This document shows positions 32,204-46,980 of a stretch of DNA of 64,000 nucleotides, one piece after another (the first letter of the stretch is position 1; every line of letters begins with the position of its first letter). The stretch lies in NCBI RefSeq assembly GCF_027942865.1, contig NC_134515.1, positions 11,089,339 through 11,153,338 of the forward strand, read 5' to 3'. The notes under the pieces were generated by a model, which saw only the letters and a list, made by a program, of their open reading frames with translations, did not search any database and was not told where the DNA came from. The translations under genes were made by a program, and so were the position numbers. This DNA comes from Odontesthes bonariensis. Its lineage: Eukaryota; Chordata; Actinopteri; Atheriniformes; Atherinopsidae.

Positions 32204-32211
32204 AGTCTTCT
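32204..32211. repeat. target site duplication, left
   Basis: AGTCTTCT, identical to 39341-39348, directly abutting the inverted end that starts ATGGAGGTAGATTTG. Confidence 0.85.
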
Positions 32212-32224
32212 ATGGAGGTAGATT

Positions 32225-32945
32225 TGTTTCTTTATTATTCAATCAAAAAAAAGGTTGCTTCAATCAAAAAATATATTTTCAATCAAAAAAACCCGTTTCA
32301 ATCAAAGAAAAAAAGTGTTTGAATGCAAAAATATATTTGAGACTCAAAAAAATGCATTTGAACACTATTTTTTTTTGCTTGAAAATGTTTTTTTTGATAG
32401 AAGTGAAGGTTTTTTTGTTTGAAGCAACTTTTTTGATTGAAGTATTGTTGTTTTGTGTTTGGGCCATATTATGGGTAGGACATTTGTGTCTTTATAATTC
32501 AATCAAAAAAGAAGTTGCTTCAAACAAACAAAAAATATTTTCAATAAAAAAATCACTTCAATCAAAAAATAAACCTTTTCAATCATAGAAAAAATGTTTT
32601 TGAATGCAAAAAAATATTTGAGACTCGAAAAATTGCACTTGAACACTTTTTTTTTGATTGAAAATGTTTTCTTTGATTGAAGTAATCTTTTTTGTGTTTG
32701 GACCATGTTATGGGTAGGACATTTGTGTCTTAATTATTCAATCCCAAAAAAGTTGCTTCAATCAAAAAAAAAACATTTTCAATCAAAAAAAAATATTTTC
32801 AATCAAAGAAAAAACTGTTTAAATGCAAAAAAAAAAAAAATCATTTGAAGTGTTTTTTTTTTTGATTGAACTTTCTTTTTTTTTGAATGAAGTGAAAAAA
32901 GTTTTGAAGTCGTTTTTTTTTTAAATCATTTTGACACAAACGTAC
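32225..32945. repeat. subterminal repeat array, left arm
   Basis: Three units of about 240 bp. Unit borders are marked by GGGTAGGACATTTGTGTCTT (near 32473 and 32713). Each is internally palindromic: TTCAATCAAAAAA blocks on one side and TTTTTTGATTGAA blocks on the other. The mirror image is at about 38610-39327. Confidence 0.8.
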
Positions 32946-33526
32946 CGCAGTGGGCGGGTGCTTCCCCATTGGTCAGACATGTTTGAGTGACAAGTGTCTA
33001 CACCAACGACGTCTTTCTGACAAGCAAGTCATGGTCGCCACTCGCCAGCGAGCCAGGAAGCAGTGGTCAGGCAGTGGTGGAGTTGTTGTTAAGTAGATAA
33101 AACCGTATTAAAATGATTGGTGTCACGTTATTAGCCTACTCTGTTTGATATTTCGATTAAACATACAGCTTGCTAACTTAGCTCACGTTGACTAATTTGT
33201 GTGATTGTGTTAGATATCTGACGCCTCATATTGTCAGGCAGGCTAGCAGGGTGCGCTAACGGCTAATTGAATTGTTTATTTCACTTAAGTAACGTTACAG
33301 AGGCTTGCTATGTGCTAGTGCTATATTGTGTTATAATACGTAACGTCATTAGTGGTCAAACAACAGTCCACAGGCCAACTGTTGCCCACAGCGCTGCCTG
33401 TTTAGCAGCAACAGGTCATGCAGAGCCTGAGTCTATCTTCTCACACAGCCCACAGGATTACACGACGCTGAAGTTGGCATCCGATTCGCCAGCCTCCGAT
33501 TCGCGCATTAAAGGGGTGGGCATAAA

Positions 33527-34220
33527 GGGCCATTTCACTGCTTTTTTGCATTTTGATCGACCAAAACAAGGTCCTATATGGAAGCTACAAAAGTTACACT
33601 GCTCAAATCTGGATGGAATTATTCTAAAGAGGCTATAGATTCATTAAAATCTTGTTTGGGATTTGTGAAACCTTTTTCTGATTTGTAAAAATACAGAACA
33701 GGGCCATTTCACTTCTTTTTTGTTATTCTGATCACCCTGAACTGGGTCCTGTATGGAAACTACATTACTTAGACAGCTCAAATCTTGATATAATTATTCT
33801 AAAGAGGCTATAGATTCATTAAAACCTTGTTTGGGATTTGTGAAACCTTTTTCTGATTTGTGAAAATACAGAACAGGGCCATTTCACTGCTTTTTTTGCA
33901 TTTTGATCGACCAAAACAAGGTCCTGTATGGAAACTACAAAAGTTACACTGATCAAATCTGGATGGAATTATTCTAAAGAGGTTGTAGATTCATTAAAAT
34001 CTTGTTTGGGATTTGTGAAACCTTTTTCTGATTTGTGAAAATACAGAACAGGGCCATTTCACTGCTTTTTTGTTATTCTGATCACCCTGAACTGGGTCCT
34101 GTATGGAAACTACATTACTTAGACAGCTCAAATCTGGATAGAATTATTCTAAAGAGGGTACAGAGTCTTTAAAACACATTTTATTATTTGTGAAAACTTT
34201 ATTTGGTCATTGAAAATTCA
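33527..34220. repeat. tandem repeat, about 175 bp x 4, left arm
   Basis: Units begin GGGCCATTTCAC at 33527, 33701, 33875 and 34051, giving periods of 174-176 bp. Two slightly different unit types alternate (DNA reading TTGATCGACC or CTGATCACCC), suggesting a higher-order dimer. Confidence 0.85.
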
Positions 34221-35140
34221 AAAAGTTCCTCTGAGCTTTCTTTCTTCTTTTCATTTGGACCATCCAAAACCAGAACCTGTATGAAAAATGATTAAATATG
34301 GGTTTAATCATTGATCACATGATATAAATGATATCAAACACACTTTAGAATTTGTGAAACCTTTCTTTGTCCCAAAATTCACTGGAGTCCTCGCCTCTCC
34401 ATGTTCATTTTAATTTCCATGAGGATCTCCTGTCTTTCACTACATAGGAAAAAGAAAAAGTTCATGCATTTTACGTCACTAACTACTTACAAGAGTCTTC
34501 TTTACTTGTTGACTTTATTATCATGTTCTTTTATCTAGAAACAATGACTTCTCTCACCTTTCTTCCATCTGCCCGTGGTCAACCTCTGCCACCGATTCAA
34601 TCCGTTTCATTTTTCTGACTACTTCCAGAGCCTTTATTGTTGCCTGCATCAGACATCCCATAGTCCAACCATTAATATGCTCTATTCTGTATTGGATGCT
34701 TTGATGAAATCTGCATCACACATTTATTGCTGTCATCTCATGAATCTTTCCACTAACATGTGCTATCATTTCAGACCCTGCTTGTCTTCTCCTGCTCCCA
34801 TCATAGTCATCTTACCTCCCATCTGAGTGCAGACAGGACCTTCTTCATCCCATTATTAACACTATCTTAGATGTCTGTAAAACAACTGTTCAACATTGTC
34901 TTTGCCTTGCAGCCCTTTAGCCTATTTGTGAATGTGATAACCTGCCATTGTAATAATGAGATTAAAAACTGTCTATTTGGCTAAAGTTTGTTTCCAGTTG
35001 CCATTTTACAAGACACGTCAAGAAAATAAAAATTAATTTTATTTGACATATTTAATGTAAAATAATGGGTGGTTAAGACCAACAGTAATCATTAGGTTGT
35101 GCTTACATGATTTAGAATACTGTACATGGACATATGTATC

Positions 35141-35956
35141 TGTTAGGATGGCCATGTAGCAGCTGGATACGCAAGGTAGGAGGCTTGAGGCAGAGGTAGT
35201 GATGAACCAACCGGGTGTTTTATTCACCAACATTTACATCAATCATACACTTTAACATGGACACATACTGCGGACCAGGAGCACTGTGGTCCTAGCAGCA
35301 TTCGTAGTAACAGGACCAACTCTCTCACGTGGTCCAACTGGCAGCCTTATATCCTACTCTGGCTCCACCAACCAAACCCGTAGGGGATTCTGCTCCTCCC
35401 ATTACACATCCCCATAACAACAACACACAAAAACCTTAAAATACATTTACCCTCTATTATAAAATCAATCAATTCCTAGCATGTCTAAACAAAAGTACCA
35501 AATCTACCAAAGACTTCCCCTAACTGATTCTGGTGCACTCCCCCCTACACTAATCAGCACATGGTACGACCCGGAACCTTCAAACGCTGCAGACTGAATG
35601 TAGGGACTCTTTTGACTGAGCACCCTGGAGAGGAGACATAGGTGAATGACTTTACACACAAATTTCAGAATTCACAATTCCAAACAGCATAGTCACCTCA
35701 CAGTTTATCACATCCTTTAGCTACACGTATCCTTATCACAGAGCATTTCAGGCTACTAACTGACTGGATGTTTCCCTTTACAGGCCTGGTCCCCCCTCAC
35801 TCCCCGCTGAGGGCAACACAGGACCTGCACACCCACCTGTTGTTAATATACACATTCAATAAAACATTTGACAATTTATTTATGCCACATTATTAAAAAT
35901 ACTACTCATGTGACCTCAAAGACCAAAAGTCAGTAATGAAGATTACCTTCATTACA
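35141..35956 (-). mobile_element. probable solo LTR in the foldback loop
   Basis: On the minus strand it begins TGTAATGAAGG and ends CCATCCTAACA, so it has the TG...CA ends of an LTR. A TATA-like GGATATAAGG (complement near 35346-35355) precedes an AATAAA (complement near 35219-35224) in the correct order. Flanking pentamers GTATC and GTAGC agree at 4 of 5 positions. It contains no coding sequence. The family is not identified. Confidence 0.6.
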
Positions 35957-37144
35957 GTAGCCCATTTTCCCATTGTAATTTATTTTACTCTACTCTGGAG
36001 CCACAACAACACTACACATTTTTAACTGACCAAACTACACACTGTTCTATCTATATTACAACAACTTAACAAGAAGTTTATTTCTCACTGGCAACCACTT
36101 GGAGATATGAAGAAATAGTTTAACCCAAAAGACATCTTCAACATTCCAGAAAGACAAATCTTGATTAAGTAAATGTATTTCAACCTTACATTCACAAATT
36201 GTCTGGTATAGGGTGAACTCTAACAGCAAAATGTAATGTTTAATATCCAATTCATCAGTGCACATAACACATAATGGCAAAATACTACAGGTTTGATAGA
36301 CGATATAATCAGGAAGTTGTGGTACAGTATCTAAGATAGTGTTAATAATGGGATGAAGAAGGTCCTGTCTGCACTCAGATGGGAGGTAAGATGACTATGA
36401 TGGGAGCAGGAGAAGACAAGCAGGGTCTGAAATGATAGCACATGTTAGTGGAAAGATTCATGAGATGACAGCAATAAATGTGTGATGCAGATTTCATCAA
36501 AGCATCCAATACAGAATAGAGCATATTAATGGTTGGACTATGGGATGTCTGATGCAGGCAACAATAAAGGCTCTGGAAGTAGTCAGAAAAATGAAACGGA
36601 TTGAATCGGTGGCAGAGGTTGACCACGGGCAGATGGAAGAAAGGTGAGAGAAGTCATTGTTTCTAGATAAAAGAACATGATAATAAAGTCAACAAGTAAA
36701 GAAGACTCTTGTAAGTAGTTAGTGACGTAAAATGCATGAACTTTTTCTTTTTCCTATGTAGTGAAAGACAGGAGATCCTCATGGAAATTAAAATGAACAT
36801 GGAGAGGCGAGGACTCCTGTGAATTTTGGGACAAAGAAAGGTTTCACAAATTCTAAAGTGTGTTTGATATCATTTATATCATGTGATCAATGATTAAACC
36901 CATATTTAATCATTTTTCATACAGGTTCTGGTTTTGGATGGTCCAAATGAAAAGAAGAAAGAAAGCTCAGAGGAACTTTTTGAATTTTCAATGACCAAAT
37001 AAAGTTTTCACAAATAATAAAATGTGTTTTAAAGACTCTGTACCCTCTTTAGAATAATTCTATCCAGATTTGAGCAGTCTAAGTAATATAGTTTCCATAC
37101 AGGATCCAGTTCAGGGTGATCAGAATACCAAAAAAGCAGTGAAA

Positions 37145-38040
37145 TGGCCCTGTTCTGTATTTTCACAAATCAGAAAAAGGTTTCACAAATCCCAAACAAG
37201 GTTTTAATGAATCTATAGCCTCTTTAGAATAATTATATCAAGATTTGAGCAGTCTAAGTAATATAGTTTCCATACAGGACCCAGTTCAGGGTGATCAGAA
37301 TACCAAAAAAGCAGTGAAATGGCCCTGTTCTTTATTTTCACAAATCAGAAAAAGGTTTCACAAATCCCAAACAAGGTTTTAATGAATCTATAGCCTCTTT
37401 AGAATAATTCCATCCAGATTTGAGCAGTCTAAGTAATGTAGTTTCCATACAGGACCAAGTTCAGGGTGATCAGAATACCAAAAAAGCAGTGAAATGGCCC
37501 TATTCTGCATTTTCACAAATCAGAAAAAGGTTTCACAAATCCCAAACAAGGTTTTAATGAATCTATAGCCTCTTTAGAATAATTATATCAAGATTTGAGC
37601 TGTCTAAGTAATATAGTTTCCATACAGGACCCAGTTCAGGGTGATCAGAATAACAAAAAAGCAGTGAAATGGCCCTGTTCTGTATTTTCACAAATCAGAA
37701 AAAGGTTTCACAAATCCCAAACAAGGTTTTAATGAATCTATAGCCTCTTTAGAATAATTATATCAAGATTTGAGCTGTCTAAGTAATGTAGTTTCCATAC
37801 AGGACCCAGTTCAGGGTGATCAGAATAACAAAAAAGAAGTGAAATGGCCCTGTTCTGTATTTTTACAAATCAGAAAAAGGTTTCACAAATCCCAAACAAG
37901 ATTTTAATGAATCTATAGCCTCTTTAGAATAATTCCATCCAGATTTGAGCAGTGTAACTTTTGTAGTTTCCATATAGGACCTTGTTTTGGTCGATCAAAA
38001 TGCAAAAAAGCAGTGAAATGGCCCTTTATGCCCACCCCTT
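37145..38040. repeat. tandem repeat, about 175 bp, right arm
   Basis: The inverted counterpart of 33527-34220, but with six unit starts (GTGAAATGGCCC near 37141, 37316, 37492, 37667, 37842 and 38018). The two extra units account for the roughly 350-bp difference in arm length. Confidence 0.85.
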
Positions 38041-39340
38041 TAATGCGCGAATCGGAGGCTGGCGAATCGGATGCCAACTTCAGCGTCGTGTAATCCTGTG
38101 GGCTGTGTGAGAAGATAGACTCAGGCTCTGCATGACCTGTTGCTGCTAAACAGGCAGCGCTGTGGGCAACAGTTGGCCTGTGGACTGTTGTTTGACCACT
38201 AATGACGTTACGTATTATAACACAATATAGCACTAGCACATAGCAAGCCTCTGTAACGTTACTTAAGTGAAATAAACAATTCAATTAGCCGTTAGCGCAC
38301 CCTGCTAGCCTGCCTGACAATATGAGGCGTCAGATATCTAACACAATCACACAAATTAGTCAACGTGAGCTAAGTTAGCAAGCTGTATGTTTAATCGAAA
38401 TATCAAACAGAGTAGGCTAATAACGTGACACCAATCATTTTAATACGGTTTTATCTACTTAACAACAACTCCACCACTGCCTGACCACTGCTTCCTGGCT
38501 CGCTGGCGAGTGGCGACCATGACTTGCTTGTCAGAAAGACGTCGTTGGTGTAGACACTTGTCACTCAAACATGTCTGACCAATGGGGAAGCACCCGCCCA
38601 CTGCGGTACGTTTGTGTCAAAATGATTTAAAAAAAAAAACGACTTCAAAACTTTTTTCACTTCATTCAAAAAAAAAGAAAGTTCAATCAAAAAAAAAAAC
38701 ACTTCAAATGATTTTTTTTTTTTTTGCATTTAAACAGTTTTTTCTTTGATTGAAAATATTTTTTTTTGATTGAAAATGTTTTTTTTTTGATTGAAGCAAC
38801 TTTTTTGGGATTGAATAATTAAGACACAAATGTCCTACCCATAACATGGTCCAAACACAAAAAAGATTACTTCAATCAAAGAAAACATTTTCAATCAAAA
38901 AAAAAGTGTTCAAGTGCAATTTTTCGAGTCTCAAATATTTTTTTGCATTCAAAAACATTTTTTCTATGATTGAAAAGGTTTATTTTTTGATTGAAGTGAT
39001 TTTTTTATTGAAAATATTTTTTGTTTGTTTGAAGCAACTTCTTTTTTGATTGAATTATAAAGACACAAATGTCCTACCCATAATATGGCCCAAACACAAA
39101 ACAACAATACTTCAATCAAAAAAGTTGCTTCAAACAAAAAAACCTTCACTTCTATCAAAAAAAACATTTTCAAGCAAAAAAAAATAGTGTTCAAATGCAT
39201 TTTTTTGAGTCTCAAATATATTTTTGCATTCAAACACTTTTTTTCTTTGATTGAAACGGGTTTTTTTGATTGAAAATATATTTTTTGATTGAAGCAACCT
39301 TTTTTTTGATTGAATAATAAAGAAACAAATCTACCTCCAT

Positions 39341-39348
39341 AGTCTTCT
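39341..39348. repeat. target site duplication, right
   Basis: AGTCTTCT, the direct copy of 32204-32211. Confidence 0.85.
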
Positions 39349-44615: not shown

Positions 44616-45633
44616 GATCAAAATCTAAAATGGTAGAAAAATAAAACTACACCAGCTTAGGAAATTAAATGTTTGAAGTATTGAAGTGGTTGTTTTTACC
44701 TAGTAAGTTATGAACTATAGCAGCTGACCCACAGTGGGGTTTTTTAAACTTTTAAACTTTAAACTGATCAATTGTTATATTGGTTTAATCTGTAATGGTT
44801 GCTGGTTTGACAAAAAAATATAACATCTAGTTTAATTCCTTTAGGGTGATGGTAGAAGTTCAATTGAGTCTGCACTGCAGACTCTGCAGTGATTGGCTGG
44901 TGGCGTGGCTCATTTACATACAACTTAGAGTTGCCAGCGCAGAGACAGAGCCGCGAGCGAGCAGTTTGTCAGAGTTGAGCGCGTGTCCGAGCACCTATGA
45001 GCGAGCGTGTGTGAGATTCATACGCACACGCTTAAAATTATTGTAGATCTGTGCCCTCAAATCAGTGTCACTGCGCGCTCAACCTGGTGGCACAAAGAAC
45101 ACGCCATACTAATGGGATTATTTCCCTTTATACCAACTGAGGAGTGAGCCTTTAATTAACAAAAAATAATTAAATCACATCAGACACTCCGGTTTTTTTT
45201 CATGTCATTGTCAATGTAGGCAGGGCTTCTTGAAAAATGGAAAAGAGGGATGGATGAAGAATATTGCATGTGTTACTTCATTATTACCACAGGTGAAACT
45301 TTTTTTAAAAGCAAAAGCAACATTTACTTATTGAAACACTTCACTAGTAGCATTTAATTGCACTGATGTGGACGCAGCTCTTTTTAAAAGTTAATTGATG
45401 CCCACAATACAAATATTTTTCATGCAGTTTCATTATTAAGCCTTAAGTTATCTTAAGGCTTAATAAGAGTTTGCCAAAGAGAGATGTGTGCGTCTGAGCT
45501 TTCTGTGGGCGGGCTGTGGGCGGACTCATGAAGGAGGAGGGAAGCTGTTAAAAGGTGCACGCTGAAGCTCACGGCGCATCATTCGTGGCAGAAGGCTGGA
45601 ACAGTACAGTCTATTGAATCCACAAAGGTGAAA

Positions 45634-46980
45634 ATGCCAGGAGTGATCCCGTTTGCGGACAACATCACTCGAGGGTGCGGAGACAACCACACGCGCCTTT
45701 ACGCGCAACTGGACGATGCTGCTCAAATCTTTCACTCAGTACTGCCTGATGGACAGGTAGTTCCAGCGCTGATTGTCGTTTTTGTTTTGCTGACTCTCCT
45801 CTCATTTCTTATAAACGTGCCAAGTCTGTTCTGCGTCGGACGGTCCGACGACATCTCCTGTCAGCCGCGCTTTGTCCTCTTTATCAACCTGATCCTCAGC
45901 GATCTCATACAGACAGTCATCATAGGTCCGGCTGTCATCCACTCACTCGTCCAACGCCGGACGATGGCGTTCAGTCACTGGTGTTACATTCAGATCTTTT
46001 TTGGGGCAGTGAGTGTTTTCTCGAGCCTCGTCACCATCACCTTCATGGCGCTGGAGCGATACGTGTTCATATGCTATGCTTTGCAATACCCCGTAATCCT
46101 CACTGAGAAACGCCTGCGACAGGTGCTCACACTGATTTGGGTTTATTCCATCTTTATCGCCATCATCAGCATGACCCCGCTGCTGTACAACCAGAGGGAA
46201 CAGAAGAATGGACTGGTCACTTTGGGGCTTCTGTGTGAACCGGACATAACAGAAATACACGTAGGTTCCCCTCGTGCTCTTGTCATATTCCGTAAAGTCG
46301 TTGGTTCCATCACTCTGCTGATGTGCCTGCTGGCACACGCCTTCTCCTACTACAAGATGTACAGAACCGCGCGGAACTTCAACGCGGACAGCGACAAAGC
46401 GCGTAAGACGGTGCTGTTTTACTGTGGCATGCTGTTCGTGCAGCTGCTGCCGCTGCTGTTTAAAGTCAGTTTGGACGTGCTGTGGGAGTTTCAGGACAAC
46501 AGTATGATTGACTTATCATACTGCAAACTTAAGCTGACCCCAACAGCAGCCGCGCTTCACGTGGCCCAGCTGATCATGAATTTGGTTCCATCATGCATCA
46601 ACCCGCTGGTCTACGGAGTGAGAAACGTGGAGATAAGGCAGGCGCTGACCAACCTGTTCCGGTGGCCGGCAGAAGATAGGGTCAGGGAGATAAGGCAGGC
46701 GCTGACCAACCTGTTCCGGTGGCCGGCAGAGGATAGGGTCAGGGAGATGAGGCAGGCGCTGACCAACCTGTTCCGGTGGCCGGCAGAGGATAGGGTCAGG
46801 GAGATGAGGCAGGCGCTGACCAACCTGTTCCGGTGGCCGGCAGAGGATAGGGTCAGGGAGATGAGGCAGGCGCTGACCAACCTGTTCCGGTGGCGGGCAG
46901 ACAACAGGGTCGAGCTCCCGTTGGAGAGAATAAGAATGAGATACATAGTAAATCAAAACCAGGTTGATGCCTTACACTGA
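45634..46980 (+). CDS. odorant receptor, OR131-2-like, with repeated C-terminal tail
   Basis: An intronless 448-residue seven-helix receptor; teleost OR131-2-like genes are typically single-exon. The start is the ATG at 45634; an in-frame GTG six bases earlier is not used. It shows sequons at N10 and N18, TM1 near PALIVVFVLLTLLSFL, a TM3 cysteine (HWCYIQIFFG), an ERY version of the DRY motif (MALERYVFICY), and an NPxxY motif NPLVYGVRN ending TM7. The region after TM7 is odd: a 19-residue unit containing IRQALTNLFRWPAEDRV is present five times (codons 333-427), followed by a basic end. The family call is by motif recognition. Flanking sequence is transposon-rich, with no second receptor in view. 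Confidence 0.85.
   Translation: MPGVIPFADNITRGCGDNHTRLYAQLDDAAQIFHSVLPDGQVVPALIVVFVLLTLLSFLINVPSLFCVGRSDDISCQPRFVLFINLILSDLIQTVIIGPAVIHSLVQRRTMAFSHWCYIQIFFGAVSVFSSLVTITFMALERYVFICYALQYPVILTEKRLRQVLTLIWVYSIFIAIISMTPLLYNQREQKNGLVTLGLLCEPDITEIHVGSPRALVIFRKVVGSITLLMCLLAHAFSYYKMYRTARNFNADSDKARKTVLFYCGMLFVQLLPLLFKVSLDVLWEFQDNSMIDLSYCKLKLTPTAAALHVAQLIMNLVPSCINPLVYGVRNVEIRQALTNLFRWPAEDRVREIRQALTNLFRWPAEDRVREMRQALTNLFRWPAEDRVREMRQALTNLFRWPAEDRVREMRQALTNLFRWRADNRVELPLERIRMRYIVNQNQVDALH
46630..46914 (+). repeat. 57-bp coding minisatellite, five units
   Basis: Units start at 46630, 46687, 46744, 46801 and 46858. The first four are nearly identical in DNA; the fifth diverges (WRADNRVE). 57 is divisible by three, so unit-number change keeps the receptor frame open. 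The repeated peptide is the putative helix 8 just after NPxxY. Confidence 0.95.

Follow-up and report, generated by a model that had tools for sequence, protein, structure and literature searches.

A foldback-like transposon in Odontesthes bonariensis composed of an IS3EU shell and a second transposon

The origin of the kilobase-long arms of foldback transposons and the identity of the transposases that move them have often remained unresolved. A 64,000-nucleotide stretch of the genome of the fish Odontesthes bonariensis (the window, on contig C15 of the 945-Mb assembly that was searched) holds a 7.1-kb inverted-repeat element that is a composite, nonautonomous DNA transposon: an IS3EU shell with a second transposon, here called X, inside it. 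The combination of IS3EU shell and X occurs at many genomic sites, nearly all with their own 6-bp target-site duplication (TSD). This ties a foldback-like family to IS3EU, with integrase-bearing partners in the same genome. The arms are those of two transposons placed end to end, a point missed by a first-pass annotation of this DNA, which described a single element. The near-identity of the tips makes origin, cross-mobilization, and arm conversion directly testable. Overall, the findings are very probably best explained by an IS3EU-tipped composite around X that descends from a mirror-copied founder and is moved by the integrase of partner copies. The anatomy is read directly from genomic copies, and the mechanism of formation is inferred from them.

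Anatomy and genomic copies of the composite

The element and its parts are as follows, in window coordinates.
32211..39341, no strand: whole composite, 7131 bp, TATGGAGG..CCTCCATA; tips at 82 places, 40 facing pairs; bounds from flank comparison
32205..32210, no strand: left copy of the target duplication, GTCTTC; exact 6 bp at this place in 36 of 40 pairs
39342..39347, no strand: right copy of the target duplication, GTCTTC; flank comparison of 40 pairs
32211..33461, plus strand: left tip of the IS3EU shell, 1251 bp; matches L024/L027 at 99.8% over 1250 bp, up to the boundary with X
38090..39341, minus strand: right tip of the IS3EU shell, 1252 bp; left tip in mirror image
32211..32940, plus strand: three AT-rich units of ~240 bp repeating the terminus, within the left tip; self-match offset ~239, tip-like motifs at offsets 263 and 502
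33462..38089, no strand: core element X, 4628 bp, ACGACGCTGAAG..CTTCAGCGTCGT; termini shared with L095 and L097, which have 9-bp direct duplications
33526..34224, plus strand: array of 4 units of 175 bp, left arm of X
36976..38025, minus strand: array of 6 units of 175 bp, right arm of X; content unlike the left array
34888..36314, no strand: loop of X, not inverted

Self-comparison shows a perfect inverted match of 711 bp at the ends of the element, and the arms (32211 to ~34872 and ~36329 to 39341) are separated by 1456 bp. Over their outer 1314 bp the two arms differ by no substitution and by a single 1-bp indel in a run of T, and over the inner ~672 bp by one substitution until the arms stop. 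Each 2.7–3.0-kb arm is made up of 1.25 kb of an IS3EU arm followed by an X arm of about 1.4–1.75 kb. The first-pass annotation was accurate in its exactly inverted ends, its near-identical arms of this length, its 1.46-kb loop, and the reading frames (123 and 83 amino acids) repeated in both arms on opposite strands. Its bounds of 32212..39340 captured the structure but fell short of the true extent, 32211–39341. Neither repeated frame has a Pfam match, and none of the 10 open reading frames (ORFs) of the element scores above the Pfam cut-off (best E 0.08). In the window, no Rfam family was found at gathering scores and no tRNA gene by a tRNA scan; viral contigs scanned with two arm patterns gave 0 matches for each. 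The foldback architecture that had been recognized also stands. An inverted match of such length does not arise by chance, and the very long arms carry tandem repeats, with 2–6 175-bp units per arm across 12 copies.

A genome search with the first 309 bp, as the first-pass annotation had proposed, finds at least 41 places at 100% identity, and the copies carry other duplications. The 34-bp tip, searched as a pattern through the whole genome at up to 2 mismatches, occurs at 82 places (41 per strand), 81 of them exact and 1 with a single mismatch; the reversed pattern, used as a control, gives 0. The 82 tips form 40 facing pairs and 2 singles, with pair lengths of 1.4–1.9 kb (8 pairs), 5.3–8.2 kb (27), 9.8 kb (1), 17.0 kb (3), and 31.8 kb (1). 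Because the tips are so alike, the composite family must have moved recently.

The flanks of these tips follow the pattern xNNNNNNT|ATGGAGG on the left and CCTCCAT|ANNNNNNx on the right, where the six N repeat and the T and A are the element ends. The 6-bp duplication is exact in 36 of the 40 pairs, has one mismatch in 1, and has no match in 3. A perfect 8-bp duplication had been reported for the window copy, and AGTCTTCT is indeed present at 32204–32211 and at 39341–39348, but the duplication made by insertion is the 6-bp GTCTTC. An apparent 8-bp duplication, with the additional A and T, is seen in 2 of the 40 copies, the window copy included; elsewhere just the inner six bases repeat, and the A and T in the window copy are there by chance. 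The 36 target sites are weakly twofold symmetric (r 0.78 against a shuffled mean of 0.15, standard deviation 0.19, with 0 of 5000 shuffles reaching 0.78), as would be expected of a symmetric integrase complex.

Long palindromes are recognized assembly hazards, and the inverted structure could on that ground be an artifact, the outcome that the first-pass annotation had named as its refutation. The 40 pairs lie at different sites on many contigs, each with its own flanks, and the two arms of the window copy are unlike in array number and content, which makes an assembly error extremely unlikely.

IS3EU identity and integrase-bearing partners

The available part of PMC12730594 gives IS3EU elements 6-bp TSDs, inverted repeats of more than 30 bp, and ends of the form TAYGG..CCRTA, stated there for fungal families, and that of PMC10045372 gives termini TA..TA and a transposase related to IS3/IS481. 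The element has termini TATGG..CCATA (82 tips), which fit this end form, along with inverted repeats longer than 30 bp, and its shell makes the 6-bp duplication. A DDE transposase of IS3/IS481 type (Pfam rva_4) is found in partner copies sharing the tips. Termini, duplication length, and the partner's integrase all point to IS3EU as the identity of the shell and away from the FB-like (FB/Galileo) element that had been proposed.

The partner studied most closely is the 31.8-kb copy on contig C7 (L024–L027), which has a 6-bp duplication and tips 99.8% identical over ~1250 bp to those of the window element. Its body holds a 234-amino-acid ORF that matches the rva_4 integrase core at E 0.03, below the cut-off, and further exons that match it at E 6e-11 and 1.4e-29. 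The 234-amino-acid integrase ORF has five near-identical stop-free copies in the genome, and the next listed relative is 71% identical over part of the ORF. All five exons lie inside tip pairs (C7, C8, C13:27507267, C16:38058511, and C24:20015502), of which three span 17.0 kb, one 31.8 kb, and one 9.8 kb. Without a nested element, A, the C7 copy would measure ~17 kb, like three of the other integrase copies.

The occurrence of the same tips with an integrase exon in five copies supports mobilization of the composite in trans, with the IS3EU integrase presumably recognizing the shared tips. This agrees with the earlier proposal that the element lacks a transposase of its own and is mobilized in trans, movement itself being deduced from the partner copies. 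The loop of the window element belongs to X, and its homology to the C7 copy is limited to the outer ~1250 bp. In the C7 copy, the arms extend 1319 bp further inward (974 bp with 1 mismatch and 345 bp with a 2-bp gap), giving full arms of ~2.57 kb.

Comparison of the integrase pieces with the PDB gave nothing useful. A second IS3EU gene lies on the other strand. One of its exons has 8 PDB matches at E<=5, all HECT ligases at E 0.6–1; another exon is without a PDB match, and there is no HECT match in Pfam, so a HECT-like reading of the gene is weak. A search for IS3EU together with HECT found no paper in the literature collection covered. Each IS3EU arm may serve as the promoter for one of the two convergent genes. 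The 240-bp units that repeat the terminus could provide extra binding sites, by analogy with Galileo, for which repeats are discussed in this role in the available part of PMC3573991.

The composite resembles IS3EU and GingerRoot, as described in the available parts of PMC10045372 and PMC12730594, in its 6-bp TSD, TAYGG..CCRTA ends, inverted repeats, and IS3-type partner integrase. It differs in that its tips are 1.25 kb long and contain arrays (the C7 copy has arms of 2.57 kb), and in a core drawn from another transposon. No foldback-like IS3EU is described in these parts of the two papers, and in a literature search pairing IS3EU with foldback the words co-occur in a reference list and a table only.

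Element A, nested in the 31.8-kb C7 copy (L024:1349 to L025:6236), is a transposon of 14,788 bp with an 8-bp duplication ACAGGATT, 80-bp perfect ends ACTGCGGTCACG, and long inverted arrays of ~170 bp. It holds a 406-amino-acid ORF with a MULE-like look and no Pfam match, and another ORF of the Ulp1-protease/PHD kind; 7 near-identical genomic copies of an element A ORF are found, with relatives down to ~24%. The 406-amino-acid ORF was considered as the partner transposase and rejected, since it belongs to an element with its own termini and 8-bp duplication. A search for Zisupton with Ulp1 in fish found no paper in the same literature collection. Separately, a single IS3EU-like integrase relative (about 37%) has 28 matches at C3:33.18–35.89 Mb, most of them with equal scores, spaced roughly 50–180 kb apart on largely alternating strands, which looks like a megabase-scale amplified array.

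Core element X and its shells

The interior of the composite is also found on its own. With the loop as query, the best 40 of 184 candidates, those scored, comprise 26 of the 27 mid-size tip pairs, one place close to the unpaired tip C4:22095249, and 13 that lie apart from the tips of the window element's family. Two of these 13, L095 and L097, end at ACGACGCTGAAG..CTTCAGCGTCGT, exactly where the shared IS3EU tip stops, and both are flanked by 9-bp direct duplications. The X tip occurs at 212 places at up to 2 mismatches (control 0). Duplications were tested in the 10 pairs outside the family of the window element that have both tips within about 11 kb among the first 100 of the 212 places, together with L097. 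An exact 9-bp duplication is present in 9 of these 11 copies, indicating that X is a transposon of its own. X has a foldback structure, with long arms, arrays of 175-bp units, and a loop of its own, and its duplication length of about 9 bp would class it as MULE-type by that feature only. The loop of the window copy differs from those of 11 other fetched composites by 0–4 substitutions per 1427 bp, from those of L095 and L097 by 7 and 9, and from that of L096 by 36.

FB of Drosophila has a 9-bp TSD and a MULE-type partner, NOF. It shares with the composite a foldback architecture with arm repeats, and in TSD length it resembles the X core only. The available sources place Galileo in P and the majority of foldbacks in Mutator, and no autonomous Tetris has been found. 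The Tetris element of Drosophila virilis, in the available part of PMC4079207, likewise has a middle domain between two arms, each built from a flanking domain, a variable array of tandem repeats, and an inner domain, and it shares tips with another element, as the composite does. Tetris has an 8–10-bp TSD and no autonomous partner was found, whereas the composite has a 6-bp TSD and an integrase-bearing partner. Galileo, in the available part of PMC3573991, likewise has long, internally repetitive arms, chimeric copies, and arm conversion; it belongs to the P superfamily, with a 7-bp TSD, arms of up to ~1.25 kb, and chimeras within Galileo subfamilies. The composite joins two different transposons and makes a 6-bp duplication in place of Galileo's 7 bp. 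No P-type transposase with a THAP domain was seen among the ORFs searched, which cover part of the partner-copy ORFs, although no search was aimed at one.

Long arms with tandem repeats and the presence of AGTCTTCT at both sides would fit a single element, either a foldback transposon of the FB or Galileo kind or a hAT-like one with 8-bp duplications. The whole element makes a duplication of 6 bp, not the 8 or 9 bp of FB, hAT, and others. With IS3EU termini, a rva_4-type integrase in same-tip copies, and an interior that exists as an independent element, a single transposon of any of these kinds is very improbable.

The junctions between shell and core are uniform. In all 12 fetched composites, the window copy included, X directly follows ...AGCCCACAGGATTAC on both sides as a mirror image, with no 9-bp direct duplication of X at its edges. 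The C7 copy has the uninterrupted site, CACAGGATTACAGCTATTTG, in its right arm, and its element A inserted no more than 2 bp from that place, which may therefore attract insertions. The X edge and the IS3EU interior share a 40-bp match, which was set aside as a sign of common origin because it is short.

Of the 11 X copies tested, the 2 that lack a direct duplication are bordered by mirror-image flanks of their own, 753 bp at 98.8% (C24) and 151 bp at 98.7% (C22), so that such flanks are seen in three shells. The C24 flank ends at TATGGAGAGAG with the duplication CAGTGA and represents a second IS3EU-like family (shell 2), the tip of which has no significant similarity to that of the window element. 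This second tip occurs at 70 places at up to 3 mismatches, and the junction of shell 2 with X at 55 places at up to 2 mismatches, with 18 facing pairs among them, indicating that the shell-2 composite has multiplied too. The C22 flank has TTAA at both ends, a shell known from one copy. X on C24 is about 93–95% identical to the window X along arm and loop. For X on C22, the eight longest matches (93–96%) all fall within the X arm and array, and its center may differ from that of the window X. The C24 and C22 cases appear to be other X lineages and separate events. A side observation concerns C16:38080870, a second-family tip with X junctions at C16:38081590 and 38093424, about 5 kb from a 17-kb first-family copy.

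Formation of the composite and later conversion

Arms within a copy have been converted since the composite was founded. Thirteen long copies were compared, drawn from the at least 41 places of the 309-bp search; the 34-bp search is likewise without a tail of diverged tips. Over the outer ~1260 bp, the two arms of one copy differ by 0–3 substitutions (mean 0.85), and arms of different copies by a mean of 1.72 and up to 6 in a left-by-right matrix; random pairing of arms reaches a within-copy mean this low in 1 of 20,000 shuffles. When array types are oriented by the loop, one side ends in unit type 6 or 8 in 9 of 12 copies and the other in type 3 in 10 of 12. L015 and L022 carry an identical array in both arms, which indicates arm-to-arm conversion, and the arms of L022 are identical over 2836 bp. 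Recent insertion or ongoing gene conversion had been offered as alternatives at the outset, and both recent activity and conversion find support.

The composite probably began with a mirror-copied founder. X would have inserted beside CAGGATTAC in one IS3EU arm. Since X is able to fold back, the flanking arm and its tip could then have been copied to the other side of X in one step, by repair or by replication, with the copied arm displacing the IS3EU genes. The product, with two like tips, would be mobile at once, and later arm-to-arm conversion would keep its arms alike. A copy of the second family, C17:95852–111825 (duplication TTTCAG), bears on this scheme. It contains an integrase-related stretch (57%, one stop), and the 753-bp flank is complete in its right arm only (95.6%), the left arm matching up to position 472. 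If this copy is representative, it suggests that one side was copied around X to give the mirrored flank.

The composite could also have arisen in two steps, with X inserted in one IS3EU arm and converted into the other, followed by single-strand annealing or recombination between the X copies that deletes the interior and the inner duplications. Arm-to-arm conversion does occur in the family, the shell-1 IS3EU arms are 2.57 kb long and symmetric so that X could be copied across, and the 3 of 40 pairs without a TSD indicate that recombination happens. However, the shell-2 copy examined has the X-side flank (positions 473–753) in the right arm only, and no complete IS3EU with X in each arm was encountered, although no dedicated search was made. 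The two-step origin is therefore a possible but less likely account.

Several points weigh against an IS3EU-tipped composite with a mirror-copied founder. Three of the 40 pairs lack the TSD (C13:29398594, C16:38058511, and C13:27507267) and 1 has a mismatch; the last two of those three are 17-kb integrase-bearing copies, and recombination between copies may lie behind all three. Transposition by the partner integrase is itself deduced from shared tips. The mid-size pair C16:6708538 is absent among the loop matches listed (best 40 of 184). The one-sided flank comes from the single C17 copy, where the integrase stretch has a stop and the left arm may be rearranged. Lastly, the shell-1 IS3EU arms are symmetric for 1319 bp past the junction, so shell 1 cannot discriminate between the routes of formation.

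A broader proposal, with roughly even chances of being right, is that X remakes unrelated terminal inverted repeat transposons. It would insert in one arm, the arm would be mirror-copied across X, and the outcome would be a one-step tip–X–tip composite driven by the transposase of the host family. The process would have taken place three or more times in a single fish genome, in two dissimilar IS3EU families and one TTAA-ended shell, with at least two of the composites having multiplied. If true, it would offer a general route to long-armed foldback transposons and to a change in the enzyme that mobilizes a transposon.

The short copies may be a second product of the same foldback tendency. 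Among the four fetched, L013 and L018 are palindromic over their whole length (98.8–98.9%), the inverted arms of L017 measure 811 bp, and L023 combines arms of 429 bp with a palindromic junction. Their junctions lie near tip positions 811–929.

A loop insert of ~361 bp, at loop position ~186–192 (window ~35073–35079) and with an apparent 7-bp duplication, is present in 7 of 12 fetched composites (L010, L011, L012, L015, L016, L020, and L021); the window copy, L009, L014, L019, and L022 are without it. Elsewhere in the window, an olfactory-receptor-like frame at 45532–46980 matches 7tm_1 (E 7e-24) and the olfactory-receptor family, in keeping with a fish source, and contains an in-frame repeat of a 57-bp unit at 46629–46911, which extends its C terminus by a 19-residue repeat.

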